Positions 20,125-44,791 of a stretch of DNA of 64,000 nt are shown piece after piece (position 1 is the stretch's first letter; every line of letters begins with the position of its first letter). The stretch lies in assembly GCA_019695345.1 (NCBI GenBank), contig JAIBAE010000015.1, positions 1 to 64,000 on the forward strand, read 5' to 3'. The DNA comes from Bacteroidota bacterium (GTDB taxonomy: Bacteria; Bacteroidota; Ignavibacteria; Kapaibacteriales; NICIL-2). Below the pieces are notes generated by a model. That model saw only the letters and a program-made list of their open reading frames with translations, was not told the DNA's origin and did no database searches. Both the position numbers and the translations under genes were made by a program.

Positions 20125-20402
20125 TTTGCTATCGCCGGACGGCACCGCACGTTTGTGTTCTTACATCCTCTTCTTGCCGGAGATTTCCTTGATTAATTCC
20201 ATTAACACATAAGAGACAAAAGGAAAACAAAAGGTACCACATAAGCATCTATTACTTCTCTGTGTGTATCACTCTATGTCTCTGTGACTCCGTGTTCAAA
20301 TGTTCAATCACGATAAACAGTATTACTTACTCAACACTTCTGCGCGGCATTGTGTGGATATGTTGATAAACCTATGGATTGGTGCCGTCCGGCGATAGCA
20401 AA
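20125..20402. repeat. family A composite element E1
   Basis: About 278 bp. It begins TTTGCTATCGCCGGACGGCA and ends with its exact inverse, GGTGCCGTCCGGCGATAGC plus AAA. Left unit stem CGGCA/TGCCG; the right unit is the same structure inverted. Between them is a spacer with the CTCTGTGTGTATC...TCCGTG phrase. It fills the convergent gap between 20119 and 20438. Very similar to E4 (27089). Confidence 0.88.
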
Positions 20403-20437
20403 CAATACTATAATAGAGCACATAATGCCAATAGTTG

Positions 20438-21826
20438 TTAAGACTGTGTACTTCCGTAAACAATATCTTTTAAGATAGCACCATACACATTGTAAATACC
20501 TTGGCTCCATTTTTCCAGTAATGCCCGATGCATAGCAGAATGTATAACACGGTTGGGGTTTGTGATGTAATCGCGCAATATGATATAGTACTCATGAAAA
20601 TCTGAGTTGGAAGATTTAAAACCTTTACTACGCAGGTATTTTTGATTACGTTCAATTACTGCCAATGCTGTTTCAGTATCACCTTGCTGTACTAACACCG
20701 CAGTTTGTAAATTTCTGAACTCAATTTCGTATTGTACATACAGCTTTCTTTTAAGAAGGTTCATTCCTTTTTGTACCATTGCCAACGCATTATTGAATTG
20801 ATGTGTTAATGTATAATACTTAGCGTAATTAAGTGCCGCATTAGCTGCCACTGTATGTTTATCATGATGCAGCAGTTTATGAAATGTGAAGTCCAGCATT
20901 GTTTGTGCTTGGGTAAAGCGCGATAAGATTAAACATACTTGTATATATTTTGCGGCAGGATAAATATTATTTTTTGTTTCCGGATATAATGTAAAAAGCG
21001 ATTCGTATTCTGTGCACGCTTCACGGAAGTTGTTGAATACCTGATATAATGCTGTAGCAAGTTTTATAAGTATTTGTTGTTTATCGAGAGTATGAAACGA
21101 TGTGATTTGTTTTGAGATTGTTGCAGCCTGCCGTATATATACAAGTTGTTGTTCGGATTCGATTGCCGCATAGTAATCGAACAAGGCAAGGTTAGCATAT
21201 ACCATTGCTTTTTTTGATGTAATGGAATGTGCATAACGGTATTCTTGTAACAACACCGATTCAAGCTTTTTATCTTCCCTGCCTTTTTGCAACACCATCT
21301 TACTTGCTAAACTCGAAATCTTTGCACTTCGTATTTGCGATGCCACTGTACTTTTTTGTTCATTCTTTTTGTGTGCAGGAACAACAGCTATGTAATCCCG
21401 TTGCACTTTGCGCACTACTTGTTCATTGATATCAAACAGCGGAATAGAAAGTAAGGTACGCAGTACCGTTTGATAATATACGTTCTTTTGTTCTGAGCTT
21501 AATGTGGGAATAAGTACCGTACGCTGGTGTGCTATCTCTTTAAATAGGTGCTTGGATAGTGTATAGCGCGCCGAAAGATGTTGTATAAGTTTTTCACCAC
21601 CTTGTGGTATAATTGCATCGTAACATTTTCTGAGTAATACCGACTGTAACTTATCCCAATTCCCGCGCGATATTCCACGCAATAGCCGTTGCTCTTCATG
21701 CTTATCTGCATCATACTCCAACATAATAGTAAGTACCTCACTCTCGCGCACAGATACAGGTATTGTACGTAAGTGTTGTTTTTCTGTTGGGTTCAAAACA
21801 CTAAGGTATTCGCTTAATAATGACAT
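20438..21826 (-). CDS. helical protein of unknown function
   Basis: 462 residues, wholly alpha-helical, with repeated TPR-like pairs in the C-terminal two thirds (NNALAMVQKGMNLLKRKLY, GDTETALAVIERNQKYL). N-terminus LLSEYLSVLNPTEKQHLRTI. No membrane segment or catalytic motif. It shares size, helical character and a possible N-terminal motif with the protein at 9956-11431. Monocistronic. I cannot assign a function; a cytoplasmic scaffold or regulator is plausible. Confidence 0.7.
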   Translation of the reverse strand: MSLLSEYLSVLNPTEKQHLRTIPVSVRESEVLTIMLEYDADKHEEQRLLRGISRGNWDKLQSVLLRKCYDAIIPQGGEKLIQHLSARYTLSKHLFKEIAHQRTVLIPTLSSEQKNVYYQTVLRTLLSIPLFDINEQVVRKVQRDYIAVVPAHKKNEQKSTVASQIRSAKISSLASKMVLQKGREDKKLESVLLQEYRYAHSITSKKAMVYANLALFDYYAAIESEQQLVYIRQAATISKQITSFHTLDKQQILIKLATALYQVFNNFREACTEYESLFTLYPETKNNIYPAAKYIQVCLILSRFTQAQTMLDFTFHKLLHHDKHTVAANAALNYAKYYTLTHQFNNALAMVQKGMNLLKRKLYVQYEIEFRNLQTAVLVQQGDTETALAVIERNQKYLRSKGFKSSNSDFHEYYIILRDYITNPNRVIHSAMHRALLEKWSQGIYNVYGAILKDIVYGSTQS

Positions 21827-21924
21827 AATTCCGTGTTGTAAGAATTCGGATAAATGCGGCGTGGTACAAATCTACTCTATTACATAGTTTACTATGCAAT
21901 GTTAAACTACTATATACATAAATT

Positions 21925-22809
21925 ATGACGCGCACAATTACCGTAGTGCTTCTACTCGGCTTCATTGCCGTATTCCTTGGGTGTTCAGATTCAACCTCGG
22001 TTGAAACAACACAGTTTAAGGGTTCCATTTATTACTCAAACGGCGGGACTGTGTATAAGTTAAACGTAACAGACCAAAGTAAAACTGAGCTTTTTACCAA
22101 TGCGCGTCACCCGGATGTAACTAACAGCGGCGACATTATTTGTGTTGAAACATATCCAATGGTGAGAATAATGCGCACTGACCTTACCGGTGCAAATAGG
22201 AATAGCATATTAACCGGCGTTGATTACACGGGTCCCAAATATAGGCAGTACATGAACAGACCGCGCATATCGTATAATCAGCAATATGTAGTATATGAAA
22301 GCGACAATGTATATAACCCAAATACTTATGTCGTAAATGCAACCGATGGAACTCTTATTGCAACAATTGGTGATTATAGTAAATCTCAACCTATGATTTC
22401 TCCCAGTTGGGCACCCGATGGCTCCGTACTTGTAGCCGGATGGACATCTATGAACAATGGTATTTACAAAGTCTCTCCCGATTTTACATCTATGCAACGT
22501 ATCGATCCAAATCTTACCAATGTAAGCGAGCCAAGTGTAAGCCCCGATGGAAAGACTATAGCGTTTATTAGGGACGGACAATTATGGATAATGGGAATTG
22601 ATGGCTCAAATCCAACACAATTATATGCAGGTGGTAACTACCGTTTTGGTATGCCAACGTGGTCGCCCGATAGTAAGTATATAGCAACAGTTAACAATCT
22701 TGCATCTTCGGGTCATATTCACATTCTTGATGTTCAGGCAAAAACACTAACAGAGATTACTAAAAGCCATTATGTTAGTCCCGATCATCAATTGTGTTGG
22801 CGGTATTAG
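21925..22809 (+). CDS. PD40/TolB-like beta-propeller lipoprotein
   Basis: 294 residues. Lipoprotein signal with lipobox VFLGC (Cys near residue 20). The body contains PD40/WD40-like blades: DVTNSGDIICVET, SPSWAPDGSVLVAGW, EPSVSPDGKTIAFIRDGQLWI and MPTWSPDSKYIATV. It is shorter than TolB and lacks its N-terminal domain, so it is a stand-alone periplasmic or surface propeller, probably a binding protein. Single gene in the divergent gap with 20438-21826. Confidence 0.85.
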   Translation: MTRTITVVLLLGFIAVFLGCSDSTSVETTQFKGSIYYSNGGTVYKLNVTDQSKTELFTNARHPDVTNSGDIICVETYPMVRIMRTDLTGANRNSILTGVDYTGPKYRQYMNRPRISYNQQYVVYESDNVYNPNTYVVNATDGTLIATIGDYSKSQPMISPSWAPDGSVLVAGWTSMNNGIYKVSPDFTSMQRIDPNLTNVSEPSVSPDGKTIAFIRDGQLWIMGIDGSNPTQLYAGGNYRFGMPTWSPDSKYIATVNNLASSGHIHILDVQAKTLTEITKSHYVSPDHQLCWRY

Positions 22810-22815
22810 AAACTG

Positions 22816-23056
22816 TTTGCTATCGCCGGACCGCGCCGCGCCTTGCTGCAAAGCAGGGCGTTTGTTTTTGCGGGAGAGTTCCTTGTTGTTGGAGCTAAAC
22901 ACAAAAGAGACAAAAGGAAAAAAAGTACCACATAAGGTTAGAGCCTCTACAACTTCCTTCTGTCACGGTGAACAGTTTTGCGTACACTATGCTTCTACGC
23001 GGCATTGTGTGGATATGGTGATAAACCTTTGGATTGGTGCCGTCCGGCGCAAGCAG
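22816..23056. repeat. family A composite element E2
   Basis: Opens TTTGCTATCGCCGGACCGCG and ends GGTGCCGTCCGGCGCAAGC. The left stem is CCGC/GCGG with an inner hairpin CCTTGCT/AGCAGGG; the right unit has GGTGCCG pairing with CGGCA. The spacer is shorter than in E1. Confidence 0.8.
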
Positions 23057-23077
23057 CAACAAAACCATGTATATATC

Positions 23078-23122
23078 CAAAAACAAAAAGAGCATTACGT
23101 TTTGTTAGTACCGTAATGCTCT
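23078..23122 (-). terminator. Rho-independent terminator
   Basis: 11-bp perfect stem AGAGCATTACG/CGTAATGCTCT, with TTTTTGTTTTTG on the minus-strand 3' side. It serves the S8 protease gene. Confidence 0.9.
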
Positions 23123-23158
23123 CTTCTTTGTGAATTAACTATCGTATTGTAGCGATTA

Positions 23159-25093
23159 TTACTTATTAAATGTAAGTGCAGTTTTACCATCGGATAGTTT
23201 AAAGATAAACGTACCGTGTTGTGTGAACTGAATGTTTACTTGTTGATTACTCATGCTTCCGGATTGAACCAAACGTCCTGTTATGTCGTAAATAGTATAC
23301 AAATCGGATGCGAGTGGTTGGTTCGTAATAAATTTAATGGCTGAGTTTTGATTGTCATAAAAGGCAATTACACTTGTATTTGCATCATCATCAACACCCG
23401 ATGTAGTTGCCGGCTTTATACCCGAAATAACCAACGCATATGGGCGTGTTGTTTGTGGTGATGTTGAACTTTTGCGAACGTTAAGCGTTGCTGTTGCATC
23501 CGCCTGTGGTGAGTTCAATATTGCCTGCTTGTAGTTATCCACCGTATTCTCGAACCATGTAGTGGTTATGGTTGCATTGCCTGTTCTGTTTGCCATTCCG
23601 GGACCCTTCCAGGGGCGTGCTTCGTTGCTGGCATTACTCTCTTTAACAAGGAAGTCGAAATTATATACTAAGCGTGATGCTGTGGGGTCGATACCATCGG
23701 TATTTACTTGTTCTGCCCCTTCATCATCGGTCCAACATATGGATACCTTTACGGGTTCACCACCAACGGTTGTGTACGTGTGTGTTGTTTCTTCGGTACC
23801 GTTATTGGCGGGGTTTGTTGTAACTGTTTCTATTACACTGTGTCCGCTTGCTTTTGCTTTTATAATATTAGCAGCAGCTTCTATGTTAGCTATACCCCAA
23901 CCAAACTTGGAATCAGGTCCGGGATTTCCAGCATCATCTGCAGTGTGTAACAACAATGCTTTTAGCAATGCAGCACTCATATACGAACCATACAATGAGT
24001 GATGATATTGTTGCAGTAACAACGCCGATGCCGCAACGGCAGGTGTTGCATACGACGTACCGCTTGATGACTCGCCATTGCCACTATAGGCAACATCCGA
24101 AGGTGTGCCGGTTGAATCGGTAAATTGCGATGAGTTAATCCCCGTTCCTTTTGCACAAATATCAGGCTTAATTCTGCCATCATCGGTGGGACCCCAGTTA
24201 CTGTAGTCAGACATAGCTCTATCGCCATTAACTGCGCCAACCGTAATTACATTTTTAGAAGAACTTGAACCGGTCATTAAATCATATCCTGCTTTATCTT
24301 TGTTACCGCTGGATTGTTGTTCGTTCCCGCCGGCAACAAACGGTAAATAATTGGGTGCATTTTTCAGGAGTAAATCCCAGTTTTTAGAAGTCTCATCGTA
24401 TGCTCCAAATTTCCATACGTCAACAGTGGAATCGTTAGAGTAACCGTATGAGTGATTGGAAATAAGAAATCCTTCTGCTGCAAAGGCCGCCATCTCAGCT
24501 AAATCATTATCCCAATCGTAACACTTAGCCGTAGCATTATATGCAATACCCCGAGCCGAAGGTTGATTAGTAATATCTTTACCAACAATAGTTCCCGAAA
24601 CGTGAGTCATGTGGTTGTTCCCACCCTTGCTATCCAATACTTGATTTGCCTGCATTGTTACCTTACCTGTTAGCAACTCGTGTGTAGAGCGAACTTGTCC
24701 GCCATCCCACACACCTGCCACCATGCCTGTACCGGTTATATCAACACCAACCGAACCACCCGAATACAAACTGTTAGCTTTAATTAACTCGCCCGATGCT
24801 TTGTTTTTGGTATTGATATACACCGGATTACCCTGTGCATCAATACGAACAAGTTCATATACCGATTTATCTTTTTCAAAGAAGCGTTTCACTTCGGGGT
24901 GAGTTTTAATATACAACTCAACACGTGCCATATCCGCACGGTATTGTGCATCGTACCGATTTTGTAATGCCTGTAACAGGGCTGTGTTGTTCTGCTGCTG
25001 TAGCTCTGTTAACTGGCTGCCTGTTTGGGCATGTATACTGCCTTGTAGTATTCCAACAAGAAACAGTACAGAAAAAACGTATCTATACTTCAT
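23159..25093 (-). CDS. secreted subtilisin-like (S8) protease with type IX sorting domain
   Basis: 644 residues from the ATG at 25093, where a signal peptide begins and ends GSIHAQ. A ~75-residue pro-region precedes the catalytic domain: D130 (VAGVWDGG), H164 (NNHMTHVSGT), S347 (SSSGTSYATP), oxyanion-region text FVAGGNEQQSSG. A P-domain-like beta sandwich (HTYTTVGGEPVKVSICWTD) and a type IX sorting domain (NQPLASDLYTIYDITGRLVQ to ALTFNK) follow. It probably acts extracellularly on proteins. The small gene directly upstream encodes a protein similar to the pro-region. The longer frame to 25207 has no signal-peptide start and is rejected. Confidence 0.93.
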   Translation of the reverse strand: MKYRYVFSVLFLVGILQGSIHAQTGSQLTELQQQNNTALLQALQNRYDAQYRADMARVELYIKTHPEVKRFFEKDKSVYELVRIDAQGNPVYINTKNKASGELIKANSLYSGGSVGVDITGTGMVAGVWDGGQVRSTHELLTGKVTMQANQVLDSKGGNNHMTHVSGTIVGKDITNQPSARGIAYNATAKCYDWDNDLAEMAAFAAEGFLISNHSYGYSNDSTVDVWKFGAYDETSKNWDLLLKNAPNYLPFVAGGNEQQSSGNKDKAGYDLMTGSSSSKNVITVGAVNGDRAMSDYSNWGPTDDGRIKPDICAKGTGINSSQFTDSTGTPSDVAYSGNGESSSGTSYATPAVAASALLLQQYHHSLYGSYMSAALLKALLLHTADDAGNPGPDSKFGWGIANIEAAANIIKAKASGHSVIETVTTNPANNGTEETTHTYTTVGGEPVKVSICWTDDEGAEQVNTDGIDPTASRLVYNFDFLVKESNASNEARPWKGPGMANRTGNATITTTWFENTVDNYKQAILNSPQADATATLNVRKSSTSPQTTRPYALVISGIKPATTSGVDDDANTSVIAFYDNQNSAIKFITNQPLASDLYTIYDITGRLVQSGSMSNQQVNIQFTQHGTFIFKLSDGKTALTFNK

Positions 25094-25124
25094 GGTATTT
25101 ATAAAATAGTTAAGAAAACGTGGG

Positions 25125-25412
25125 TTATTTCTTTTTGGTTTTGATATACACGGGCTTACCGTTTTTATCAATACGGATAAGTTGGTACGTCTGTCCATTC
25201 CGCACAAATGTCTTTTTGGCTTTAGGATGCGCCTTCAAGTATTCCTCTACATTTAGCGAATCCTTTTTATGTTGCTCCTGAAACTTTTGTTCAAGCTTCT
25301 TTAACTCTTCTTTGTTCGCTTGTTTTATCACTTCGCGGTCTTTAGCACTTTGCGCAAAACTTACAGAAGCAATCAACAACGTCAGTATTATGGTGCCTAC
25401 AAATGTCTTCAT
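25125..25412 (-). CDS. secreted pro-region-like protein, putative protease inhibitor or chaperone
   Basis: 95 residues: signal peptide ending VSFAQ, a charged helix (ANKEELKKLEQKFQEQHKK), then VEEYLKAHPKAKKTFV and YQLIRIDKNGKPVYIKTKK. This second half lines up with residues ~58-98 of the downstream S8 protease (VELYIKTHPEVKRFF; YELVRIDAQGNPVYINTKN). It is 31 bp upstream of that protease's ATG in the same direction, so the two are probably one transcript. A stand-alone homologue of a protease pro-region suggests an inhibitor or folding chaperone. Alternatively it is a duplicated fragment that still happens to be open. Confidence 0.75.
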   Translation of the reverse strand: MKTFVGTIILTLLIASVSFAQSAKDREVIKQANKEELKKLEQKFQEQHKKDSLNVEEYLKAHPKAKKTFVRNGQTYQLIRIDKNGKPVYIKTKKK

Positions 25413-25576
25413 ATATGGAATGTTAGTGTGGAATATCCGACGTGTACTTGTTGTTTTTTGGAATACAACAAACTGTTACCTATAAACGGGAGTGCGTGCA
25501 ATATAAATACACTTTGTCTATTTTGTACATTAGGATACAATATTATTATCCCTTATGTCGAACATAAATATGCTTC

Positions 25577-25817
25577 TGCTATCGCCGGACGGCACCGAAT
25601 GATTGTTACTATACATCCTCCTCTTGCCGCAGAGTTCCTTGTTTGTTTAGTTAAACACAAAAGAGAGAAGGGGAAAACAAAAGGTAACACATAAAGATAG
25701 AGAGTGTATCTGTAACTTCCTTTTTTCACGGGAACAGTTTTATGTACAAGACGCTTCTGCCCGGCATTGTGTGGATATGTTGATAATTCTGTGGATTGGT
25801 GCCGTCCGGCGATAGCT
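25577..25817. repeat. family A composite element E3
   Basis: TGCTATCGCCGGACGGCACC opens and GGTGCCGTCCGGCGATAGC closes; left stem CGGCA/TGCCG. It lies between divergent promoters of the protease operon and pirin. No gene is seen in 25413-25914. Confidence 0.85.
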
Positions 25818-25914
25818 TATGTATGATTTGTGCTATAAAAAGCATCGTAATTTGTTGAGTAGTAAGTTGTATATTGAAAACATAAAATTACTTTGAGCAT
25901 AATGATATATCTAT

Positions 25915-26796
25915 ATGGCAAATAATAAAATGATTGTTGATGAGCGAAGCAGAGACCTTGGAAACTTTCTTGTGGGGCGTTTACTACCTTTCCGCGAAAA
26001 ACGCCAGGTTGGCCCGTTTACGTTTATCGACCACATGGGGCCGGCAGAAATTAGTGAAGGTACTTATTTCGATGTCGATCAGCATCCCCATATTGGGTTA
26101 TGTACATTAACATACTTATTAGAAGGTGAAGCAGAACACCGTGATAGTACAGGAGCGCACCGTATAATTACACCCGGTTCGGTAAATTTTATGACGGCAG
26201 GAAAAGGGGTAACACATACCGAACGTACACCAATACACCAACGGGATGGAGGAAGGTATCGTATTCATGGATATCAGGTATGGGTTGCATTGCCAAAAGA
26301 ACTGGAAGAAATGGAGCCAACGTTTACCTATGTAGATAAACACGACTTACCTACATGGAATGAGAATGGTTTAGAGTTTATACTTGTTGCCGGAAGCGGA
26401 TATGGGCGTACTTCGCCTCTTGCAGTGCATTCGCCAATGTTTATGCTGGATATTACAGCACATACCGAATCGCAATTAGAGATACAAGGACAAGTAAAAG
26501 GTGAAATTGCCTTTGTTGTTGTACATGGCACTTTAAACGATGGTGGCGAGCATATTAGCCAAGGGCAAATGCTCATTTCTAAAACCGATAACGAATGCTC
26601 TGTTACACTTACCACTGGAACCCGTGTTTTACTATTTGGTGGTGAGCCATTCCCTGAGGAGCGTTTTATGTATTGGAATTTTGTTTCCAGCAGTAAAGAA
26701 CGAATTGAACAAGCTAAACAAGACTGGGCTCAAAAATTATTCCCTAATGTACCGGGAGACACTACATACATACCGTTACCAAAACAACACTTATAA
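25915..26796 (+). CDS. pirin family protein
   Basis: 293 residues, a bicupin. The N-terminal cupin carries the pirin metal-site text DQHPHIGLCTLTYLLEGEAEHRDS and GVTHTER. The RDLGNFLVGRLLPFREKRQVGPFTFIDHMGP opening is also typical. Some bacterial pirins have quercetin 2,3-dioxygenase activity and others bind transcription factors; the substrate here is unknown. Five bases separate it from the acetyltransferase gene, forming a two-gene operon. Length is normal. Confidence 0.93.
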   Translation: MANNKMIVDERSRDLGNFLVGRLLPFREKRQVGPFTFIDHMGPAEISEGTYFDVDQHPHIGLCTLTYLLEGEAEHRDSTGAHRIITPGSVNFMTAGKGVTHTERTPIHQRDGGRYRIHGYQVWVALPKELEEMEPTFTYVDKHDLPTWNENGLEFILVAGSGYGRTSPLAVHSPMFMLDITAHTESQLEIQGQVKGEIAFVVVHGTLNDGGEHISQGQMLISKTDNECSVTLTTGTRVLLFGGEPFPEERFMYWNFVSSSKERIEQAKQDWAQKLFPNVPGDTTYIPLPKQHL

Positions 26797-26801
26797 TACC
26801 T

Positions 26802-27080: not shown

Positions 27081-27088
27081 TAGAGTTA

Positions 27089-27364
27089 TTGCTATCGCCG
27101 GACGGCACCGCACGTTTATGTTTGTACATCCTCTTCTTGCCGGAGATTTCCTTGTTTAATTCCTTTAACACATAAGAGACAAAAGGAAAACAAAAGGTAC
27201 CACATAAGCATCTATTACTTCTCTGTGTGTATCACTCTATGTCTCCGTGACTCCATGTTCAATGTTTCTATCACGATAAAGGTTGTTACTTTAACAACGT
27301 ATCTGTCCGGCATTGTGTGGATATGTTGATAAACCTGTGGATAGGTGCTGCTATGCGATAGCAA
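27089..27364. repeat. family A composite element E4
   Basis: Nearly identical to E1 over the first ~170 bp, including the CACATAAGCATCTATTACTT segment. The right end is degenerate (GGTGCTGCTATGCGATAGC), so its terminal stem has a mismatch. It fills the convergent gap between the acetyltransferase and the gene at 27368. Confidence 0.85.
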
Positions 27365-27367
27365 GAA

Positions 27368-29203
27368 CTATCTAACTACAACTATTCGTTGCGTAATAAT
27401 ACCCGCTTCAGTTTGCGCAGTTAAGATATACGTGCCACTTGGTAACGGGCGAATATCCAATGTAGTTGCTTGTGTGGTTTGCTGCAACACAGGTGTGCCC
27501 AGCAGTGTGTAGATTGTGGCGCGTTGTATTGTTTGGGGTTGGTTATTCTGTATTATTTGTACTTCGGTCTGTGCCGGATTTGGTTGAACCGAGTTTGTTT
27601 GTATAGCATCTTGCTCTTGTACTGTTGTTGTTGATGCTGCAATAATATCACGCAGTGCTTGCATTTTGTAGTTTCTATCGGGCTTCGTGTAATCGTCGGT
27701 TATGCCCCAGCAACCATATCTGTTGTACGATGAAACAAGTGTAAAGTAATTGGCTAACCCGCCGCCAAGGTTTTTCCAGCCCTCTATGTAGTTATACTTT
27801 ATTGCATCGGCTACTTCCGTTGTGCGGTTTGCCAGAATCTGATTTCCCAAGTTTGCATTTGCCTGGTTTGGCAAACCTATTCCACCTTCGTACGATGCAC
27901 ATCCGCCGGGGAGTTGTAAGTCGCGCGCGCGCTTAAAATGATTATCGCGGTACGCAGAATTAGCGGTGTTGTTTATTTGGTCTTTAATGTCATCGGTCAT
28001 GCCTTTTGCAATATCAACCGGATTAGTTGCGTTAGGATTTTTAGAACCAAAGTATGCACTTGGGCTTATTGCATAGATGTAATTTTTTGGTGCACCGTAT
28101 TTATTGGTAATGTATGAAATATGCGCATCACTTCTGCCGCTGTATCCTTGTTGCGCGCCAAGCACAACACGAATACGTTTGTTGATTTCGTTTGCACCAA
28201 ACACTTGTGCAAATAAGTTGGAGAGTTCTACGGTGCGGCGTGCATAATTTTGGTCGAACGTAATACCACGTGCAGCTGCATCAGCTTTGTTATATGCACC
28301 ATACGCCATAAACGAACCGCTCCAGACCTCGTTGCTGTTTTCTACATAGATGTTGATGCTTGGGTCTAACTGTTGTTTAAGCATGGTGGCAAGTTGAATA
28401 ACGTAATTGGAATCAGCCGACATCAACACGCAAATCCACATATCTTTTTTAAGGATGTTTGCAAGTGCAATGATATTCTCCCAACTCCATGCGTCGTTAA
28501 CCCCAAGTTCCGGAACAGGAACCTGAACGGAATAGTTTACCGGTTTACGTTCTGCCCATGTTGTTTTTTTAGGATACACCGGCTCGCCATCCCACACGTT
28601 TTGCACACCATAATAACGGTAGCATGCAAAGTCGGCGCTTTTACATAATGCAAGAAACTCATCGGTAAAAACTTTGGTGGAAGTTAACGGATATCCCGGA
28701 CGGTTTACAACTATATCCGTAACTCCGCTGTTTAGCGTATCTTTTGGCGAACGGCGTGTATTAGTAAATACTAAGTTCACTAACCCGTGGTTAGCATTGG
28801 GATAGCCGCCAACAACAAGTTCAAAATATGTTGTGTTACTTGTGGCATCGTAGATAAGGTTCTGCACACTCGAAGCCACCCACGGCGAGCTTACAGTTCC
28901 CGAACCCTGAAATTTACATTGATACGAACCGGAAACATTCACGCGGTATTTCTCCGGGTCATCAATAGAGTTACTCCATTCTGCCGCCGGGCGCGCATCC
29001 ATTAGTAATAATTCAAAATCGCTGGTAGGATATCCAAGCGTATCATATCCAGCTGCCTTGGAATATCTGTGCGTATGTTTAGCAACGTTTACAAACGCGC
29101 CGGTATTTTGCCCGTCGAAGTTAACTCCTAACTGAAACGTAGATTGTGCAGTTGCTGCTAAAGTCAAGAATACAAATAGGAATACGTACACAGTATTTTT
29201 CAT
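27368..29203 (-). CDS. secreted glycosidase-like protein with type IX sorting domain
   Basis: 611 residues with a signal peptide (VFLTLAATAQS). Central text SWENIIALANILKKDMWICV and YVENSNEVWSGSFMAYG resembles a clan GH-A TIM barrel, in which an N-E pair supplies the acid/base. Such NE-containing proteins of unassigned GH family are known in environmental Bacteroidota and Planctomycetes. The C-terminus (SVQPNPAQTEVQIIQNN to TQRIVVVR) is a type IX sorting domain. It probably acts on a polysaccharide at the cell surface, but neither the family nor the substrate can be fixed by eye. Single gene. Confidence 0.78.
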   Translation of the reverse strand: MKNTVYVFLFVFLTLAATAQSTFQLGVNFDGQNTGAFVNVAKHTHRYSKAAGYDTLGYPTSDFELLLMDARPAAEWSNSIDDPEKYRVNVSGSYQCKFQGSGTVSSPWVASSVQNLIYDATSNTTYFELVVGGYPNANHGLVNLVFTNTRRSPKDTLNSGVTDIVVNRPGYPLTSTKVFTDEFLALCKSADFACYRYYGVQNVWDGEPVYPKKTTWAERKPVNYSVQVPVPELGVNDAWSWENIIALANILKKDMWICVLMSADSNYVIQLATMLKQQLDPSINIYVENSNEVWSGSFMAYGAYNKADAAARGITFDQNYARRTVELSNLFAQVFGANEINKRIRVVLGAQQGYSGRSDAHISYITNKYGAPKNYIYAISPSAYFGSKNPNATNPVDIAKGMTDDIKDQINNTANSAYRDNHFKRARDLQLPGGCASYEGGIGLPNQANANLGNQILANRTTEVADAIKYNYIEGWKNLGGGLANYFTLVSSYNRYGCWGITDDYTKPDRNYKMQALRDIIAASTTTVQEQDAIQTNSVQPNPAQTEVQIIQNNQPQTIQRATIYTLLGTPVLQQTTQATTLDIRPLPSGTYILTAQTEAGIITQRIVVVR

Positions 29204-29251
29204 AACATCGAACTAGTGGTTATAGTATAGTTGCAAGTTACAAAATATTTG

Positions 29252-29477
29252 CTGCTATCGCCGGACGGCACCGCAGGTTTGCGTTTTCACATCCTCCGCT
29301 TGCCGGAGAGTTCCTTATATAACCAAACAATTAACTCCGAGACATTCTCTGTGTCTCCGTGATTTTGTGTTCATCTACGCAATCACGATGAACGTTGTTG
29401 CTTACACTATGCTTCTGTGCGGCACTGTGTGGATATGTTGATAAATCTGTGGATTGGTGCCGTCGGGCGATAGCAAA
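29252..29477. repeat. family A composite element E5
   Basis: CTATCGCCGGACGGCACCGC opens; GGTGCCGTCGGGCGATAGCA closes. It differs from E6 (44566) at only a handful of positions over ~225 bp, 15 kb away. Confidence 0.88.
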
Positions 29478-29513
29478 CACAAAACCCCACAGAAGAAACT
29501 AACACAATTAAAA

Positions 29514-32895: not shown

Positions 32896-32959
32896 TTTGC
32901 TACCGCGGACGGCACCAAACCGCAGGGTATCTACAAACCTCGCTGTGCCGGAGAGAATG
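32896..32959 (+). repeat. family A palindromic repeat, short form
   Basis: TTTGCTACCGCGGACGGCAC head; six-pair stem CGGCAC/GTGCCG; end GGAGAGAA. Confidence 0.78.
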
Positions 32960-32983
32960 TTTTAAATATCGTTATCACCATGA

Positions 32984-35370: not shown

Positions 35371-35380
35371 ATAAAGTAAT

Positions 35381-36194: not shown

Positions 36195-36210
36195 AATACA
36201 GCACGCACAA

Positions 36211-36240
36211 AACAAAAACGGACTGTACTGCTACAGTCCG
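36211..36240 (-). terminator. Rho-independent terminator
   Basis: CGGACTGTA/TACAGTCCG stem with a 4-nt loop and TTTTTGTTTT on the minus-strand side. It serves the HYR-repeat gene. Confidence 0.9.
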
Positions 36241-36290
36241 CTTGGGTAGATTATAGTTCTGCTGAGGAACTATGTTTGTGAATCCGTAGC

Positions 36291-39200
36291 CTACTTGAGA
36301 ACCACGAACTGTTTTGTAAGAATACCGTGTGGTGTTTCGATTCTTAGAGAATACGTTCCATTTGCAATTGTATCGGTATTGAGACCTACGGAGAACAGCG
36401 CAGTACCCGCGTTCATTGTTTGCGAAAACACTGTTTCCCCTAGAAGGTTTGTTACGCGAACCACGTAATCATCTTGAATTGCTTCTTGGAATGTAATGTT
36501 GATGTACTGTGCTGCTGGATTTGGCGACAGCATAAAGTTGGATGTCGATTGAATTTCTGGAGAGTCGGTATCTTCTGCAATTCCTTTGCTTGCGCAAACA
36601 GAACGAGTTCCTAACCACACCTGATTTGAGTTGATAAGATTTTGAAGTTGTGAATACTGAATGAGTGAGTGTGTGTTTGTGTTGCGATACCATACCCACA
36701 CTTGGCTTGTACCAACTTTCCAGTTCGAACGAACATCGGCAAATGCTGGTGGGTATTTGCAATCTGGTAAGCCATCGTTGTTGTTATCTACGGCATCGTT
36801 ACCGCCATCGCATTCATCGCAGGTATTGTGTACGCCATCGCAATCGTTATCGTTACCAGAACCTGCTACAATTCTGATATATGCAGTGCCATCGGTGAAG
36901 TTACCCATTGCATCGGTTGCTCTCACACCAATGCTAAAGTTTTGATTTGCATTTACGCATGTAAAGCTGGACTGTCCGCTAACTTGTGTTAGTGTTGTGC
37001 TACCACCGCAGTTATCAGTTGCCGACCAAACTACTTGGCTAAGATTAGAAGATGTAAAGCTTAAGGTACCATTGCTTGTTAAACTAATGTAGAATGGATT
37101 TGTTGAGGTTCCTTTGCATGATAGCGTTGGTTTGGTTGTATCCTGAATAACGATTGTTTGAGTTTGTGTTGTTGTGTTACCGTTATTATCGTTATATGTC
37201 CATACCAATGTGTGTGTGCCTTGTGTGCTAAAGGTTGTTTGCGAAGGTGTACCTGCAAATGTACCTGGGCGGCAATTATCGGTTGCTGTTGGATATGGGA
37301 ATGCAACAGTGTAATTGCATTGACGGTTGATAGTTGGTAAGGAAGCAACACTTGGCGTAGGAGCAGTGTTATCGGTAACTACAACTTGTTGTGTTTGTAT
37401 TGATGTGTTTCCGTTGCCATCGTTGAATACCCACGTAATTGTGTGTGTACCAACACTAAAGCTTGTTGGTGCATTGGTTGTTGCTTTGATATATCCTTTG
37501 CAGTTATCAAGTGCCCATGGATAGCTGATTTGATTTAGATATGCTTTACATGTTCTGTTGATAGTAGCAAGTGATGATGACAATGGCACAGGCGCAGTGT
37601 TATCGTTAACAACAACTGTTTGGTTTTGTGTGGAGATGTTTCCACGTCCATCGTTGAAGCTCCATACAATTGTGTAGGTACCTGCTGTTGTATAACTTAA
37701 TGGATTAGTTGTTGTACCTTGAATTACACCTGCGCAGTTATCTGTAGCTGTTGGGATAGTAGTTACTGTTGCACTGCACTGACCAGTAACTGTTGCAAGT
37801 GAAGCGGCATTTGGAACAGGTGCAGTGTTATCACCTACGTTAATTACTTGGTAGGCAGAATCGTAGTTTCCTTGATCATCTTGGAAGTACCACAATAAAC
37901 TGTAGGTACCAGCACTTGTAAATGTTAGTGTATCGGTTGGAAGAAAATTGTTTGCGCTAAATCCGTAAACCATGCTACAGTTATCGGTAGCTGTTGGTGC
38001 GGTGAATATATGTGTGCCACCACATTGAATTGAAATTGGAGTAAGTGTTGGTACTGTTGGAGCGGTTGTATCTTGAACAACCACTGTGGTATTGCAATAC
38101 GCTACTGCGCCTTGCGCATCGGTTGCTACTACTTGAACTGCAGTTGTGCCAAGCGCATAAGGACCAGATGGAGTAGCTGAAAGCGTTACACTAGAACCAT
38201 CCTGATCGTAAGAGCCATTACCAAGTACATTACTGCTAATTGCAATAGGTGAGCACGATGAACCCATAAATGCTGTTTGTGTATTACATACTGCAAATGG
38301 TGGCATATTGGTTGTGTAGGTTAATTCTACATCGTTACCATTTCCACCACCATAGTTAATGCTAAATCTATTTGAACCAATTGTTGCAATTCCATTGGTG
38401 AGCAATCCATTGAAGTGACCATTGATATCGTTGCCTGAGTTAAGTTCGATTGCAATGATAGAACTTGCAAGCGTAGTTGAGCTTCCACCTGCAATTGTAC
38501 TAGTAGTGTTTGATAAACCTAAAGCACCATTTACAATTATTTTATCGTGTTGGGTGCATGGCGTGGAGCCATTGATATCCATAAGGTACGTACCAGAGAT
38601 ATTTAAGCCACCTGTTGTACCACCGTTAATTGTTATACAGCCAACTGAACTCCCTGCAGGTGAGATAACACCATTTTGCTGAATTGCAACAAAACCGTTT
38701 ATTGTTCCTGTACCTGCTAGTGTACCTTTCCAAACCGTTAGTTCCATATCGCATGTAGTGCCGCCTACATCAAGAGTACCTTGGTTTGTTGTTGTTAACC
38801 ATGCTTGGCGCCAAGGTCCATCCAATCCCATGCGTCCGGTGAAGGATGCAAGCGAAACAGTGCCTGATGATTTTTCAATGTAGATTCTTGATAAAGAGCC
38901 ATTGCCAGAAATAGTTTGTGTAGCGGTACCAACCATGTACACACTACCTGGATTCTGATTAGATGGGTTTGCTGTCCAGCCATCGGAATCGCTACAAGCT
39001 ACGTTACCGAACACTTGAATGCGATTGTTGGTAAATCCGCTACCATAATACAATGCGCCAATATTTATGATGTTGAGTGTATTCTGAACTCTAATGCTTG
39101 AGGTAAGTGGGGAAGAGTACACCACACTAGATGATGTAGCACCATTGATTGTGAGATTGTAGAATTGCTGAGTGCTGTGAAGAGCGAAAATATCGTTTGA

Positions 39201-39602
39201 TGTGGGTGCAATTACGATTGTGCTAGTTCCCGCACTAAACGATGAACTTCCGTTGATGGTGAGTGATTTACTCACAGTGAGTGTGTTGCTTCCTGCACTA
39301 AGTACACCGCCATAGGTATTTTCTATAAGTAGTGCTTGAATACTTGGTGAGATATTCATGGTGCAGTTTGCAGAGCTTGCAGCCGAGAATTTGGCGGTGT
39401 CTGTTGCAGTAGGAACACCCGTAGGCGACCAGTTGTTAGGATTATTCCAAAGGTTGTTCCCACCTGAATTTGTCCAGACTCGTGTATCAGCAGTACTATT
39501 AACACAGAAGACTAATGTAACTAACACTAGGGAAATGATGTTTGGGAGAGAGTAAAGTGCACTATTTATTTTTGAATGTACTTTACAAGTTAAGTTAAGC
39601 AT
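36291..39602 (-). CDS. large surface protein with HYR-like repeats and type IX sorting domain
   Basis: 1103 residues. AGGAG before the ATG and a signal peptide (LVLVTLVFCVNS). Residues ~40-430 form a beta-helix-like region opening GNNLWNNPNNWSPTGVPTA. About residues 435-850 hold five tandem ~80-residue modules, each beginning (N/T)TAP or TTKP and containing TATDNC and GTYTIVW-type text (HYR/Ig-like). A Ca-binding thrombospondin-3-like stretch (DCDGVHNTCDECDGG) follows, then a linker and a type IX sorting domain (NFMLSPNPAAQYINITFQE to TKQFVVLK). Likely a surface adhesin or matrix protein. Near-identical repeats may cause recombination and length variation. Confidence 0.88.
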   Translation of the reverse strand: MLNLTCKVHSKINSALYSLPNIISLVLVTLVFCVNSTADTRVWTNSGGNNLWNNPNNWSPTGVPTATDTAKFSAASSANCTMNISPSIQALLIENTYGGVLSAGSNTLTVSKSLTINGSSSFSAGTSTIVIAPTSNDIFALHSTQQFYNLTINGATSSSVVYSSPLTSSIRVQNTLNIINIGALYYGSGFTNNRIQVFGNVACSDSDGWTANPSNQNPGSVYMVGTATQTISGNGSLSRIYIEKSSGTVSLASFTGRMGLDGPWRQAWLTTTNQGTLDVGGTTCDMELTVWKGTLAGTGTINGFVAIQQNGVISPAGSSVGCITINGGTTGGLNISGTYLMDINGSTPCTQHDKIIVNGALGLSNTTSTIAGGSSTTLASSIIAIELNSGNDINGHFNGLLTNGIATIGSNRFSINYGGGNGNDVELTYTTNMPPFAVCNTQTAFMGSSCSPIAISSNVLGNGSYDQDGSSVTLSATPSGPYALGTTAVQVVATDAQGAVAYCNTTVVVQDTTAPTVPTLTPISIQCGGTHIFTAPTATDNCSMVYGFSANNFLPTDTLTFTSAGTYSLLWYFQDDQGNYDSAYQVINVGDNTAPVPNAASLATVTGQCSATVTTIPTATDNCAGVIQGTTTNPLSYTTAGTYTIVWSFNDGRGNISTQNQTVVVNDNTAPVPLSSSLATINRTCKAYLNQISYPWALDNCKGYIKATTNAPTSFSVGTHTITWVFNDGNGNTSIQTQQVVVTDNTAPTPSVASLPTINRQCNYTVAFPYPTATDNCRPGTFAGTPSQTTFSTQGTHTLVWTYNDNNGNTTTQTQTIVIQDTTKPTLSCKGTSTNPFYISLTSNGTLSFTSSNLSQVVWSATDNCGGSTTLTQVSGQSSFTCVNANQNFSIGVRATDAMGNFTDGTAYIRIVAGSGNDNDCDGVHNTCDECDGGNDAVDNNNDGLPDCKYPPAFADVRSNWKVGTSQVWVWYRNTNTHSLIQYSQLQNLINSNQVWLGTRSVCASKGIAEDTDSPEIQSTSNFMLSPNPAAQYINITFQEAIQDDYVVRVTNLLGETVFSQTMNAGTALFSVGLNTDTIANGTYSLRIETPHGILTKQFVVLK

Positions 39603-40016
39603 GTCTATGCTCCTATTAGATAGTGAATGACTATGTATCTACCTAAAGAGATACTATTTGTCAAGTGAACGTGAACGAACATCCTCCCCTTTCCCCAAAG
39701 GGGTACACTCTAACCGAGGCATCCTTCCTGTATTATTTAGCGAACACACTTGGTGTGCTGTGTGTGTTGTACATAACGTTCAAAAATCACAAATAACATT
39801 CTACTATAAACCTGCTTTGCGCCACTGAATACTTTTTTTGAGTATCTGCATATATTTTATTCATAACTGTGGGCTGTAATAACTGTGGCTATCTGCCTTA
39901 ATTCAGATAGCCACAATTTTTTACGTATTAATATCTGTTGAGTAATAATGTACCGCTCGGTATACATATTGTCGTATTCGACAATTCATCCTACATATAT
40001 ATTAATCTCTACTTTA
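39603..40016. other. intergenic region, no gene seen
   Basis: Contains a short palindrome CCCCTTTCCCCAAAGGGG near 39686 and the hairpin at 39884. No open frame with coding character. Confidence 0.4.
39884..39922 (+). terminator. 12-bp hairpin with T tract, direction uncertain
   Basis: TGTGGCTATCTG/CAGATAGCCACA is perfect, followed by ATTTTTTA on the plus strand. No plus-strand gene precedes it. It may terminate the minus-strand gene at 40017 weakly, or an antisense transcript. Confidence 0.5.
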
Positions 40017-41273
40017 TTATCTGACTACTGCAAATTGTTTTAGTATCACATCGCCCACAGCCCGATGAATCATGATAGTATACGTCCCAGAACTTATTGA
40101 GGCAGGTAGTTCTAGCTCTGGAGTTGTAAAAGTATGTATAAGATTGCCATTTACTGTATACACATCTGCACGTACAAAGTTGCCTATACCTTTTATTGAA
40201 CAACCAACTAAATATGTAGGATTTGGATAAATTTCTACTTCCTGATTATCCTCTATTTCTACCGACGATGTTTTATAGAACATACTTGCAAACTCCTGAT
40301 TGTTTATCTCCCATTCATGAACAGTTTCCGCCGTAACATCTACAGGAACATTTGAGACAAACTCCTTGGTTTCTACATTAAATACAATTGTATATGGCTT
40401 ATACAACTCACTATTTACTACACGCGCTGTTAGTAGTGAGTTCATTTGATCAAATGCAATATGCGTTTCATAGATTGCTGCAAATGTTTCATCGCTCAAC
40501 ATAGTAAATACCCCATTAGAGTCTACGCTTGCAATCTGCATACTATTTGTACTTGTTGTTGCAAAACCAATAAATGAATTTGTGCGGTTGTTATATTGTA
40601 TTGCATTAAGTTGGTACTGCAATGGATTAGTACGATGAAGAATATTTCCGGTTTGTGCATCAATAAAGTACAGTCGTATATCGCTTAAAGATACTTTAGT
40701 ATTCTTGGCAGCAACAATAAACACACCTGTATTAGAATTATAACACGATGTATTTACTACAACCTGATCAAACTCGTTGATTGTTTTAATCACATCTGTC
40801 TGTGCTATGGCTGGATTCACACGAACAAATTCAACAACGTAACCCGGTGATACAAGATTGGAGTCATCCTCAATCTTTTTAGGACGTAGCCCGTACAACG
40901 TACCGGTCTTAAAATCGTATTCTGTTTCGCGTATTGCAAGGTCATTCGTAGATACCTGACTAACAACATCACCCGTCTTTGAGTTTACTCCTACCAATGT
41001 ATAATTTTTGCTATCTTGGCTGTGTGAAAAATAGTAAATACCGTTCTGGGGATTTAATGTTGAAGAGCCTACAAGAATTGTACTGTAGCCAAAATCATGT
41101 AATACCAATGATGTATTTGCGATTGGATTGTACATTACAAACTGAGTTGACTTCAACTCCTGATTAAAGCGCAAGCCACTAACTTGAATATCAGATTGAT
41201 TGCCGGCATACATTGTAAGCGTAGCAAACACAATATTCAAGGTACAAAAACAAATTGTGTAGAGATTTTTCAT
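40017..41273 (-). CDS. secreted protein with type IX sorting domain
   Basis: 418 residues from the ATG at 41273 (AGGAG upstream; signal peptide LYTICFCTLNIVFATLTMYA). The middle region has regular beta repeats with text such as GNILHRTNPLQYQLNAIQY and VETKEFVSNVPVDV, suggesting a propeller, without strong motifs. The C-terminus EIYPNPTYLVGCSIKG to KQFAVVR is a type IX sorting domain. The frame to 41327 is rejected. Single gene. Function unknown. Confidence 0.82.
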   Translation of the reverse strand: MKNLYTICFCTLNIVFATLTMYAGNQSDIQVSGLRFNQELKSTQFVMYNPIANTSLVLHDFGYSTILVGSSTLNPQNGIYYFSHSQDSKNYTLVGVNSKTGDVVSQVSTNDLAIRETEYDFKTGTLYGLRPKKIEDDSNLVSPGYVVEFVRVNPAIAQTDVIKTINEFDQVVVNTSCYNSNTGVFIVAAKNTKVSLSDIRLYFIDAQTGNILHRTNPLQYQLNAIQYNNRTNSFIGFATTSTNSMQIASVDSNGVFTMLSDETFAAIYETHIAFDQMNSLLTARVVNSELYKPYTIVFNVETKEFVSNVPVDVTAETVHEWEINNQEFASMFYKTSSVEIEDNQEVEIYPNPTYLVGCSIKGIGNFVRADVYTVNGNLIHTFTTPELELPASISSGTYTIMIHRAVGDVILKQFAVVR

Positions 41274-41529
41274 CCTAACACACTCCTTAAGTATGTAAAT
41301 AAATAGTGTAGATTCTTTATTTAACAACCTGAGTGACTTGTTTTTGTTTCTACCTACTTAGGCACTTGTAGCAGGTTTACTACCAACGACTGTATTTCAT
41401 AAACAGAAGTTGGAATATTTTTAATAAGTGTACCACTAAATTATACTCTATCAACTACGCGGAACCAACATAATCTATCATATAGAACTATAGCTGAGTG
41501 AATGGTTCGGAAACAATCCACTTAAAAAG

Positions 41530-42273
41530 CTATTCACTTAATATTTTTAGTATAGAATCACGTTTGCGTTGAGATACAGGAATCACAATGTTCTCTTCTG
41601 TGATTACACTTCCCCCTTCGTCTCTATCAAAGCGTACTATTCTGCGAGAATTAACCATATAAGAGTGATGCACGCGTATAAAACCATACGGAGTTAACAT
41701 ATCATCAAATTCTTTTAACGTTTTAGAGACAAATACACTTTTACCTCCTACCAGAATAAATTTTGTATACCCTTTGTGCGCTTCTAATACAGAAATATCA
41801 GGAACCCGAATAAAGTGAATTGCATCTTGGTCTCGCAGTACAATCCGTTTTTCCTGATAAGCACGAGGCTCAAGACCTTCTAATAGTACAGCAACCTGCT
41901 CTAATTTATTGTGCTTTTCAATATTGGCTTGGGCACGTTCTACACTGCGTTGCAGTTCATCTTCCTGAACAGGCTTTAACAGGAAGTCTGTTGCACTAAA
42001 TTTAAATGCATCAATTGCATAATGTTGGTGTGCTGTTATAAATACAAGCTGAAACATTGAAGTGTCTACTTTTCGTAGTAAATCAAATCCCGTTCCATCA
42101 TCCATCTCAACATCAAGAAATACAATGTCATACTTTTGTTTCCGTAATGCCAGTATACCGGCTTCCACACCCGATGCTTCTGCAATTGAATCAACATCAG
42201 GGCAGTAGTTCTGAAGCAGTGTTTTGAGTGCTGTTCTCAGTGGCTCTTCGTTATCTATAATTAGTACTTTCAT
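41530..42273 (-). CDS. LytTR-family response regulator
   Basis: 247 residues: receiver domain with D54 (VFLDVEMDDG), acidic pocket IIDNEE, KPVQEDEL at the fifth strand, then a LytTR DNA-binding domain (AIHFIRVPDISVLEAHKGYTK, FIRVHHSYMVNSRRIVRFDRDE, VSQRKRDSILK). It binds DNA directly to control transcription. The gene begins 2 bp after the LytS-type kinase gene, so the pair is one operon and one phosphorelay. The regulon cannot be seen from sequence. Confidence 0.95.
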   Translation of the reverse strand: MKVLIIDNEEPLRTALKTLLQNYCPDVDSIAEASGVEAGILALRKQKYDIVFLDVEMDDGTGFDLLRKVDTSMFQLVFITAHQHYAIDAFKFSATDFLLKPVQEDELQRSVERAQANIEKHNKLEQVAVLLEGLEPRAYQEKRIVLRDQDAIHFIRVPDISVLEAHKGYTKFILVGGKSVFVSKTLKEFDDMLTPYGFIRVHHSYMVNSRRIVRFDRDEGGSVITEENIVIPVSQRKRDSILKILSE

Positions 42274-42275
42274 GT

Positions 42276-44150
42276 TTATGGCAGTTGTTCGTATAAAATT
42301 GGCAACGTAATATTTACAGTTTTACCTTGTGCTTCGTTATCTTGTATTGTAAACACAGCATTTGAGTTATACTGCCTGTTAAGCAAGTACAATCTGTCTC
42401 GGGTTATTTGCATTGCCCGCGAAGGGTAATCTTTGTGGCTTGATGCAGAATTTTTCGTTCCGTTATCTGTTATGCTGATATGAACCGAGTTCTCCCGCAC
42501 ACTAAAGCTAACGGTTATAATACCTTTGTAAGAAATACCTTTAAAACCGTGTTCTAAACTATTCTCAATAAATGGTTGTAGAATCATCGAAGGTATCAAA
42601 AGTTCCTCTGTTTCTACGTTTGGGTCAGCCTCAATTTCGTGTTCAAACTTATTGGGCTGTCGTAGCGATTCCAATTCCAAGTAATTACGCAGAAAGTCAA
42701 TCTCATTATCAATCGATACTAATTCATTATAACTACTCTCTAAGGTCTGGCGCATCATACGTGCATACTTACCTAAGTAACTCGATACTTTAAATGAATC
42801 GTTTTCGGTTAATGTAAAACTTTGTATCGAGCCCAGTGTATTAAAAAAGAAATGAGGGTTTATTCTGGCGCGTTGTAAACGCTGTTCTGTTTCCAGAATA
42901 TACTGCTTATCTTTTAATGTTTTTTGTCTGTATAATACAAACAATACTAAAGCAACAAGTATTAAACTAACAACTACTGCTATTAGGTATTTGATATTAA
43001 GTGCCGAAATCTCTTTCTGTTGCTCCAATTCAGATATTTCTTTCTCATTCTTAACCTTGTTATACTGCAACTCCAATTCACGTGCTTTTTCAAATGTCTC
43101 AATATTATTTACACTGTCTTGCAATGCGGTTTGAATCTTTAGAATCTGATATGCTTCTTTGTAATTACCGGCTTTCTCCAGAATCTCTTGCATGGTTTCG
43201 TATGCAGTAACAATTGTACCCGTCATACCTGTCTGCTTTGCGCACGAAAGAGCCGAGTCAGCAAAAATTTTTGCCTGAGCATGATTGCCCAAGCTGGAAT
43301 GTGCACCCGCAAGAATTGAATACGTATTAGATAACGAAAACGGTGGGAGTGTACCTTTACCAACTAATAACGATGAATCTGCATACAGCAGCGAACTACG
43401 AAACGAGTTGTTGTATAATTCGGCAAGAGCACAGTTCTGGTAAGCCCGCACTTTATTTGGAATACGTTCATCATTCCTATTATACTCAAGGTTTTTTCGT
43501 GCCCACTCAATAAACTTTTGCTTGTAGATATCCTTATTAGTTTTATCAAATGCCGTTCTATACGCATCGGTATATGCAGTTGATATGTTACCTTCATACC
43601 CTCTGTTAGGAATTTGCTCTACAAGTCGTTGTGTTTTATTTAAAATCTCTATCTGTCGTTCAAAATCTCCAATTACATTTACTATAGAAGATATATTCAG
43701 TAGTGCTGTTACCTGTTGTAAGGTATCTTTATTTTGCTCGCAAATATCTGCAACGTTAAACAGATGCTTTAAGGTACCTTCTTTATCCTCGGTTAAATAT
43801 GCGATATAAGCAAGCTGACGCTCATTATAAAGAAACGTTTTCTTTTCGCAGCCAGACTCCATTAGCAACCTATGCTCTTTAGCTAAAAGCAATTTCGCAG
43901 AATCAATATGTCCGTCAAACAATGCAAGTTGTGCTTGTAAGTTAATTGCATAAATAGCACAAAGTGGCGAGTTCTGAGCCTTTACTTTATTATACAACTC
44001 CAGCATTGCAGGTCTATTCCCGGCATGTACTTGCTGAACAAACAACACCTCAGTTTTCTTAAAGCCGTCACAATCACAATCCGAAGAAAACACCGGAATA
44101 GCAGTACTCCATAAAAGCACAAGAATCTGAACATACTTTCCAATATTCAT
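42276..44150 (-). CDS. LytS-type sensor histidine kinase with TPR sensor region
   Basis: 624 residues: signal peptide, a periplasmic TPR-like helical region (~30-370), a coiled segment, one membrane helix (YLIAVVVSLILVALVLFVLY, ~388-408), a His_kinase domain with INPHFFFNTLGS (phosphoacceptor H433) and a GHKL ATPase (QPFIENSLEHGF, ITDNGT). The arrangement matches the many TPR-LytS kinases of Bacteroidota. It phosphorylates the LytTR regulator encoded 2 bp downstream. The periplasmic signal is unknown. Confidence 0.93.
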   Translation of the reverse strand: MNIGKYVQILVLLWSTAIPVFSSDCDCDGFKKTEVLFVQQVHAGNRPAMLELYNKVKAQNSPLCAIYAINLQAQLALFDGHIDSAKLLLAKEHRLLMESGCEKKTFLYNERQLAYIAYLTEDKEGTLKHLFNVADICEQNKDTLQQVTALLNISSIVNVIGDFERQIEILNKTQRLVEQIPNRGYEGNISTAYTDAYRTAFDKTNKDIYKQKFIEWARKNLEYNRNDERIPNKVRAYQNCALAELYNNSFRSSLLYADSSLLVGKGTLPPFSLSNTYSILAGAHSSLGNHAQAKIFADSALSCAKQTGMTGTIVTAYETMQEILEKAGNYKEAYQILKIQTALQDSVNNIETFEKARELELQYNKVKNEKEISELEQQKEISALNIKYLIAVVVSLILVALVLFVLYRQKTLKDKQYILETEQRLQRARINPHFFFNTLGSIQSFTLTENDSFKVSSYLGKYARMMRQTLESSYNELVSIDNEIDFLRNYLELESLRQPNKFEHEIEADPNVETEELLIPSMILQPFIENSLEHGFKGISYKGIITVSFSVRENSVHISITDNGTKNSASSHKDYPSRAMQITRDRLYLLNRQYNSNAVFTIQDNEAQGKTVNITLPILYEQLP

Positions 44151-44565
44151 GCAATTATCTCCAATTCGGAAGTGTAGTGTTGTTGTTCATGTTCTATAAT
44201 ATCGGTTAAGCCGTTCAAAACTGTCACAGTCATTATTCTGCGATAAGCCTTACATACCCTCAATTATAACATCACAGGCTATGGTACATTAACATAACAA
44301 TATACAGATATATATGTATAATATTAACCATAACAACATCAACCATATAGGAAAGCCAAAGCTACCGTGCATCGCACGATGTAGGTAGGAGAATGTACAG
44401 CATGGATTTAACACGCCTACATTATTATGGCATACATGGTGGATATGTTATGCACTATTTCGCACTGCAACTTCACAAAATCCGGCAAACAAAATAGCTT
44501 CATTGAACAAGCGAATGGATTTTATAAATAACTGCATTAATTCTACGAATAACTGATGTAGCTTT
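44151..44565. other. intergenic region upstream of the kinase operon
   Basis: No gene. AT-rich between 44280 and 44340, compatible with a minus-strand promoter for the LytS operon, but I cannot place -33/-7 boxes with confidence. Confidence 0.35.
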
Positions 44566-44791
44566 TAGCTATCGCCGGACGGCACCGCAGGTTTGCGTTT
44601 TTCACATCCTCCGCTTGCCGGAGAGTTCCCTATATAACCAAACAATTAACTCCGTGACATTCTCTGTGTCTCCGTGACTTCGTGTTCATCTACGCAATCA
44701 CGATGAACGTTGTTGCTTACACTATGCTTCTGAGCGGCACTGTGTGGATATGTTGATAAATCTGTGGATTGGTGCCGTCGGGCGATAGCAA
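44566..44791. repeat. family A composite element E6
   Basis: Near-identical twin of E5. Left stem CGGCA/TGCCG, right unit inverted. It ends 50 bp before the PH-domain operon start. Confidence 0.88.

Follow-up and report, generated by a model that had tools for sequence, protein, structure and literature searches.

Six composite repeats (E1-E6) in a 64,000-nt stretch of a Bacteroidota genome (assembly GCA_019695345.1, contig JAIBAE010000015.1, positions 1 to 64,000; "the window" means this whole stretch) were each found to consist of a unit of about 95 nt present in two copies that face each other. We consider it probable that E1-E6 are inverted pairs of a hairpin-forming, non-coding and multiplied unit resembling repetitive extragenic palindromes (REPs), and that a mobile-element explanation accounts for them jointly. 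Four features of the family carry this explanation: sharp ends (T-tract, then GCTATCG ... CGATAGC), duplication of whole composites without target-site duplication (TSD), compensatory changes in the stem, and a 5' end lying behind a T-rich stretch. The units look like orphan REP-like hairpins with T-tract placement and with composites like bacterial interspersed mosaic elements (BIMEs), that is, a variant of the known REP/BIME repeats.

The arm was searched with a 20-nt pattern, allowing three mismatches. It occurred 12 times in the window and not once in 100 shuffles, which established that the six head-to-head composites of the initial annotation are real (Table 1). Their terminal inverted arms are identical at 14-20 of 22 positions. 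The claim that each composite begins with the arm and ends with its inverse held for most of them, but the right arm of E4 (GCTATCGCATAGCAGCACC) and the arms of E2 are degenerate, with 14-15 of 22 matches. Likewise, the spacer phrase CTCTGTGTCTCCGTGAC was present in E1, E4, E5 and E6 but not in E2 and E3. Each half does contain a hairpin, but in place of the proposed CGGCAC/GTGCCG stem it has 5 bp (CSGCA/TGCSG) enclosing a loop of 28-31 nt, with no long palindrome. Folding of E6 as single-stranded DNA (ssDNA) joined one end to the other by base pairing (z about -4).

The abundance of the unit was estimated from other parts of the same genome. A first sample of 857 kb (19% of the genome) contained 286 units, compared with 1 on the reversed control, and an enlarged sample of 1.589 Mb, with the window excluded, contained 478, corresponding to about 1,370 per 4.56-Mb genome. 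Open reading frames (ORFs) were assigned by a longest-ORF rule without a gene finder, and by this rule the units are extragenic, palindromic and of high copy number. The 5' part of the consensus consists of a T-rich tract, GCTATCGC, a spacer with 1- and 2-nt variants, (n)GA, the stem CSGCA, and CC. After the loop follow TGCSG, GARAGAAC, about 25 variable nt and GGTTATCGTG. The tail, terminating in TTATCGTG, is weaker than the hairpin part, and its strict form was found in 16-22% of units against a background of 0.5%.

Covariation was observed at stem pair 20-61 (CG 35, GC 19, UA 3), where cells changed on both sides numbered 29 against 11.4 in shuffles, and the signal was lost once the partners were slid by 1-3 columns. 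The structure tested was defined by hand; with a MAFFT alignment as input, RNAalifold missed the stem. An outer T/AGAA pairing could also form but is weaker than the stem (78% paired). The figures for the hairpin foot, loop length, terminators and T-tracts, and orthologous sites were obtained from 80 stretches other than the window. The foot directly 5' of the stem is CnGA in 207 of 459 units (about 45%) and otherwise CAAA or similar; the tetranucleotide GT[AG]G was not found at the hairpin foot in the units.

Neighbouring units 50-450 nt apart were convergent in 72 of 75 cases, far more often than chance would give. Since this convergence holds also between genes of the same direction, the pairs are not merely two units behind two convergent genes. 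Composites are mostly 120-380 bp long. About two-thirds of the units are single, no excess of decayed arms was found in the regions beside them, and the framework is equally conserved in singles and pairs (Mann-Whitney p = 0.25 and 0.92). The BIME layout assigned by the initial annotation is thus supported by convergent pairing but does not describe the general form of the family, whose single units are undecayed and for which no cognate transposase was found. We regard the BIME reading as partly right, because the units appear to be REP-like, formerly mobile and lineage-amplified.

Evidence for mobility came from duplicated composites. The near-identity reported for two pairs was confirmed (E5/E6 97%, E1/E4 89%; remaining composite pairs 63-76%). 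These two pairs, and a third at L063:12812 and 17890 (5 kb apart), are alike exactly from GCTATCG to CGATAGC, with unrelated flanks, in agreement with the proposed recent spread. No TSD was visible by eye in E1-E6, as had been noted before, and 56 composites analyzed at k = 2-9 showed no excess over shuffled flanks. Single-strand elements of the IS200/IS605 type leave no TSD and have a fixed target sequence 5' of their left end; on this side the units show a T-tract preference and no fixed tetranucleotide. The lack of a TSD at lengths of 2 to 9 largely refutes a miniature inverted-repeat transposable element of a DDE transposase with terminal inverted repeats of about 20 bp. The inverted and precise ends and the composite length would suit such an element, but two-thirds of the units are single-ended and the listed repeats of at least 250 bp, from 35% of the genome, included no larger element sharing these ends, leaving this reading very improbable.

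Comparison with relatives showed a narrow distribution. Of 60 relatives, 58 lacked the arm pattern, and the other two had a lone match each. A covariance model detected dozens of related units in G002, a sister genus in which the consensus has diverged (CGGCACCGCACC...TGCCGGAAAGCGCAGTC), and at most one weak match in each of the remaining relatives searched. No other genome matched in a draw of 197 genomes from the class. The exact 20-mer in named genomes, this and very near genomes left out, gave lone matches in unrelated high-GC genomes, which we took as chance. At 75 comparable gene 3' sites, a unit was present in both genomes at 5, only in the sister at 4, and only in this genome at 29, the last being an upper figure because detection in G002 was stricter. 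The 5 shared sites are about the number expected under independence. Orthologous sites thus do not always contain the same element; constant occupancy is what the initial annotation had named as evidence against mobility. The genes adjoining E1 and E2 have no unit beside their orthologues in the sister genus, where the exact empty junction is unreadable because the other neighbours differ.

Two other sequences were common to both genera. A non-coding sequence of about 110 nt (L078:728-858 and L112 about 5459-5570), about 91% conserved, with one full copy in this genome and no Rfam match, is a candidate structured RNA; a family unit lies about 110 nt away from it in both genera. A short dispersed sequence (L110:11474-11519; L053, L058, L074, L174), present at several loci of this genome and in the sister genus, is 88-93% identical over 44-52 nt.

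Placement of the units relative to genes was then considered. A same-strand gene lies upstream of 232 units, of which 141 begin 0-15 nt past its stop codon, and 87 of 601 ORFs of the sample carry a sense unit at this distance, so that about 1 in 7 sampled genes has such a hairpin no more than 15 nt past its stop codon. A second mode at 50-70 nt was made up of units sitting immediately behind intrinsic terminators: of 44 units located 35-110 nt past a stop, 37 were preceded by a strong hairpin (mean minimum free energy -15.0 vs -6.5 kcal/mol in controls). A terminator stood ahead of the unit in 81% of genes with a unit in this mode; among genes that carry no unit, only about 22% had one detected within 200 nt. 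A T-tract was found 5' of units in every context, gene starts included (T fraction 0.61-0.80 in the last 8 nt). In tandem intergenic regions the orientation was random (120 sense, 106 antisense), and showed no bias with respect to GC skew. The units just past stop codons might suggest a family of transcription terminators. This is scarcely credible, since the T-run is 5' and not 3' of the hairpin, in tandem regions every second unit has the wrong orientation, and units also lie behind real terminators.

We infer that the placement reflects a T-tract insertion preference combined with selection against gene damage. Under the mobile-element explanation, the units would be, or would once have been, non-autonomous mobile DNA, inserted beside a T-tract by a strand-specific, hairpin-recognising reaction analogous to those of IS200/IS605 and REP systems. 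The T-rich stretch found there is formed either by the few bases next to a stop codon or by the T-run with which an intrinsic terminator ends. One such reaction would yield single units as well as inverted pairs, and selection on the hairpin framework would then explain why old copies persist. The elements mark terminators and stops and leave them intact, and they lend themselves to the questions of how REP-like repeats pick their sites, whether they need a REP-associated tyrosine transposase (RAYT), and whether hosts come to rely on them.

REP, BIME and REP-doublet (REPIN) sequences are known together with RAYT (TnpA_REP) transposases (PMC3116915, PMC6006769), and E. coli REPs are known within 15 nt of stop codons (PMC12306157). 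The units resemble them as high-copy extragenic hairpins with inverted pairs and stop-proximal placement, but differ in their length of about 95 nt, in lacking the GT[AG]G foot and a cognate transposase that could be found, and in having a stem of 5 bp and a loop of 28-31 nt where REPs have a short-loop palindrome. In the REPIN/BIME pattern singlets are decaying remnants, whereas here singles outnumber doublets and match their conservation. The hairpins of class 3 TnpA_Y1, with a CnGA foot and about 600 copies in Solibacter usitatus, are reported mainly from other phyla (PMC6006769). By description, they share with the units a high copy number and a weak atypical hairpin, and about 45% of the units have a CnGA 5' of the stem, but no class 3 tnpA gene was identified among the PF01797 matches of this genome. 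ERIC, BOX and RUP are intergenic imperfect hairpins of about 100 nt without a transposase of their own. The units are like them in these respects, again as compared by description, but differ in the T-tract- or terminator-adjacent 5' end and the inverted-pair composites. Group IIC introns insert directly behind intrinsic terminators, a position that the units share, although they contain no intron sequence and the sister genome has no reverse transcriptase. An integron attC origin was rejected, because the two conserved unit ends are not inverted and the orientation is random.

Several results weigh against the mobile-element explanation. An enzyme acting in trans, envisaged in the initial annotation, did not emerge: the PF01797 search of this genome gave four matches, spread over three loci, to an intact and a broken IS200-type gene and a gene of REP_Tyr type, none of which could be tied to the family. 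The intact IS200-type transposase gene (tnpA) on C123 and its palindromes lie between a left and a right family arm about 1.1 kb apart. It was rejected as the autonomous copy of the family, because its own tandem palindromes (GCTCCATCGGAGC upstream, GCTACTCYRTAGC downstream) stand between gene and arms; no other locus in the sample carried these arrays among the matches listed. All Y1 genes, on C123, C53 and C55 (the last a REP_Tyr_transposase), adjoin palindromes other than family units. The sister genome (91% complete) has homologous units and gave no match to PF01797 or a Y1 transposase. As for a reverse transcriptase (RVT_1), one gene was found in this genome and none in the sister. The mobiliser may accordingly be the C123 protein, an enzyme since lost, or one of some different kind. 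In addition, single units have a poorly delimited 3' end. Lastly, loops are mostly unrelated between copies, with at least about 11% of units in the first sample having a relative by loop sequence, beside a framework that is 79-81% identical, which is unexpected for a recently spread neutral element.

The same findings bear on an ordinary REP/RAYT system, in which the units would be REPs of a resident Y1 transposase, most likely the C123 IS200-type TnpA. The BIME-like pairs, the arms flanking this gene and the CnGA foot resembling that of class 3 hairpins would fit. We nevertheless judge it improbable, given the intervening palindromes, the lack of a GT[AG]G foot, doublets no better conserved than singlets, a sister genus that has the family and no Y1 gene, and the reported phyla of class 3.

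The framework was conserved while loops were unrelated, suggesting selection on the copies. Loop length was 28-31 nt in 399 of 437 units, and loops were G-poor. At an orthologous site with alignable flanks (L062:6262 / L110:10879), 34 of 36 framework positions and 13 of 29 loop positions were identical between genera (p = 1e-5), and at L062:4690 / L110:12530 the whole hairpin was kept. This contrast, based on one clear orthologous site and the population pattern, is unlike neutral remnants of a mobile element. It would agree with structured elements functional for the host at the RNA or ssDNA level that purifying selection has retained at the ends of genes, where they might, for instance, act on mRNA 3' ends or serve as binding sites for proteins, with mobility ancient and incidental. 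The undecayed single units and the frequency of sense units just past stops would also agree. Against this stand the random orientation in tandem regions, units behind terminators that would fall outside the mRNA, the mostly unshared orthologous sites, and the finding that terminators are no scarcer in genes whose stop is followed by a single unit (24%) than in others (22%). Rfam did not match the units at the gathering or a relaxed threshold, the latter giving two chance-level hits outside units. Host function is thus a tentative and rather unlikely alternative. That short hairpins not moved by a Y1 enzyme landed at stop-proximal and terminator T-tracts, multiplied separately in two genera whose consensus sequences diverged, and were then retained copy by copy through selection as part of gene 3' ends is, in our view, unlikely. 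Viral contigs contained no match to the units.

Table 1. Members of the repeat family in the window, and the intact transposase gene found elsewhere in the genome.
Feature	Position	Strand	Details
E1	20128..20399	.	272 bp; two facing units; begins 8 nt past stop of ORF 19448-20119(+); right end 39 nt from stop of ORF 20438-21826(-)
E1 left unit hairpin	20128..20190	+	GCTATCGCCGGACGGCACC - loop - TGCCGGAGA
E1 right unit hairpin	20337..20399	-	loop AATCCATAGGTTTATCAACATATCCACACAA, DnaA-box-like
E2	22819..23054	.	236 bp; begins 9 nt past stop of ORF 21925-22809(+)
E3	25578..25816	.	239 bp
E4	27091..27362	.	272 bp; right end 5 nt from stop of ORF 27368-29203(-)
E5	29254..29474	.	221 bp
E6	44568..44789	.	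222 bp
Single unit	1265	-	
Single unit	4834..4930	+	tail GTTTATCGT
Single unit	5440..5538	-	tail GGTTATCGTG
Single unit	7815..7880	+	10 nt past stop of ORF 5618-7804(+)
Single unit	11662	+	
Single unit	16303..16370	+	short-spacer variant GCTACCGC-AGAC
Single unit	32899..32965	+	short-spacer variant, behind 8-T run
Single unit	36189	-	
Single unit	47008..47075	+	short-spacer variant GCTATCGC-AAAC
Single unit	52774..52840	+	short-spacer variant, behind 9-T run
Single unit	57938	+	other palindromic repeat nested in its loop
Single unit	59002..59099	-	tail GTTATCGTG
tnpA, intact, IS200-type	G000 C123, L031:1378-1998	-	PF01797

Beside the six pairs, the window contains 12 further single units. Loops of some family units contain other palindromic repeats, of a GTAG type (GTAGGGGCGTATTGCATACGCCC) or GGGCAGAAAATTTTCTGCCC, as at window position 57938 and at L057:7297, L058:2075, L060:10508, L061:212 and L052:16608. 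One subfamily of loops carries TATCCACAGRTTTATCAACATATCCACA, with three near-DnaA boxes within about 28 nt, which is retained while other loops diverge; its members are the right halves of E1-E6 and units at L073:7976, L078:7741 and 18897, L062:10213 and L083:18304.

Repeats of other kinds were also noticed in the window. A 71-nt repeat beginning TGCGCAGCTGTAACGGTTGGCTCCGCCCG (47114-47184 and 56404-56474, 99% identical) apparently belongs to another dispersed family, and a similar stretch was found near L058:6065. The segment 12061-13985 contains four repeats of 56 nt (CTGTAAACGCCGGAACTGTAGCCGGCACAACACAA), of which two are identical, and a 91-nt direct repeat occurs at 16161-16251 and 18782-18872 (89% identical). 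A type IX secretion system (T9SS) sorting domain, which fits an assignment to Bacteroidota in a broad sense, is also encoded in the window.

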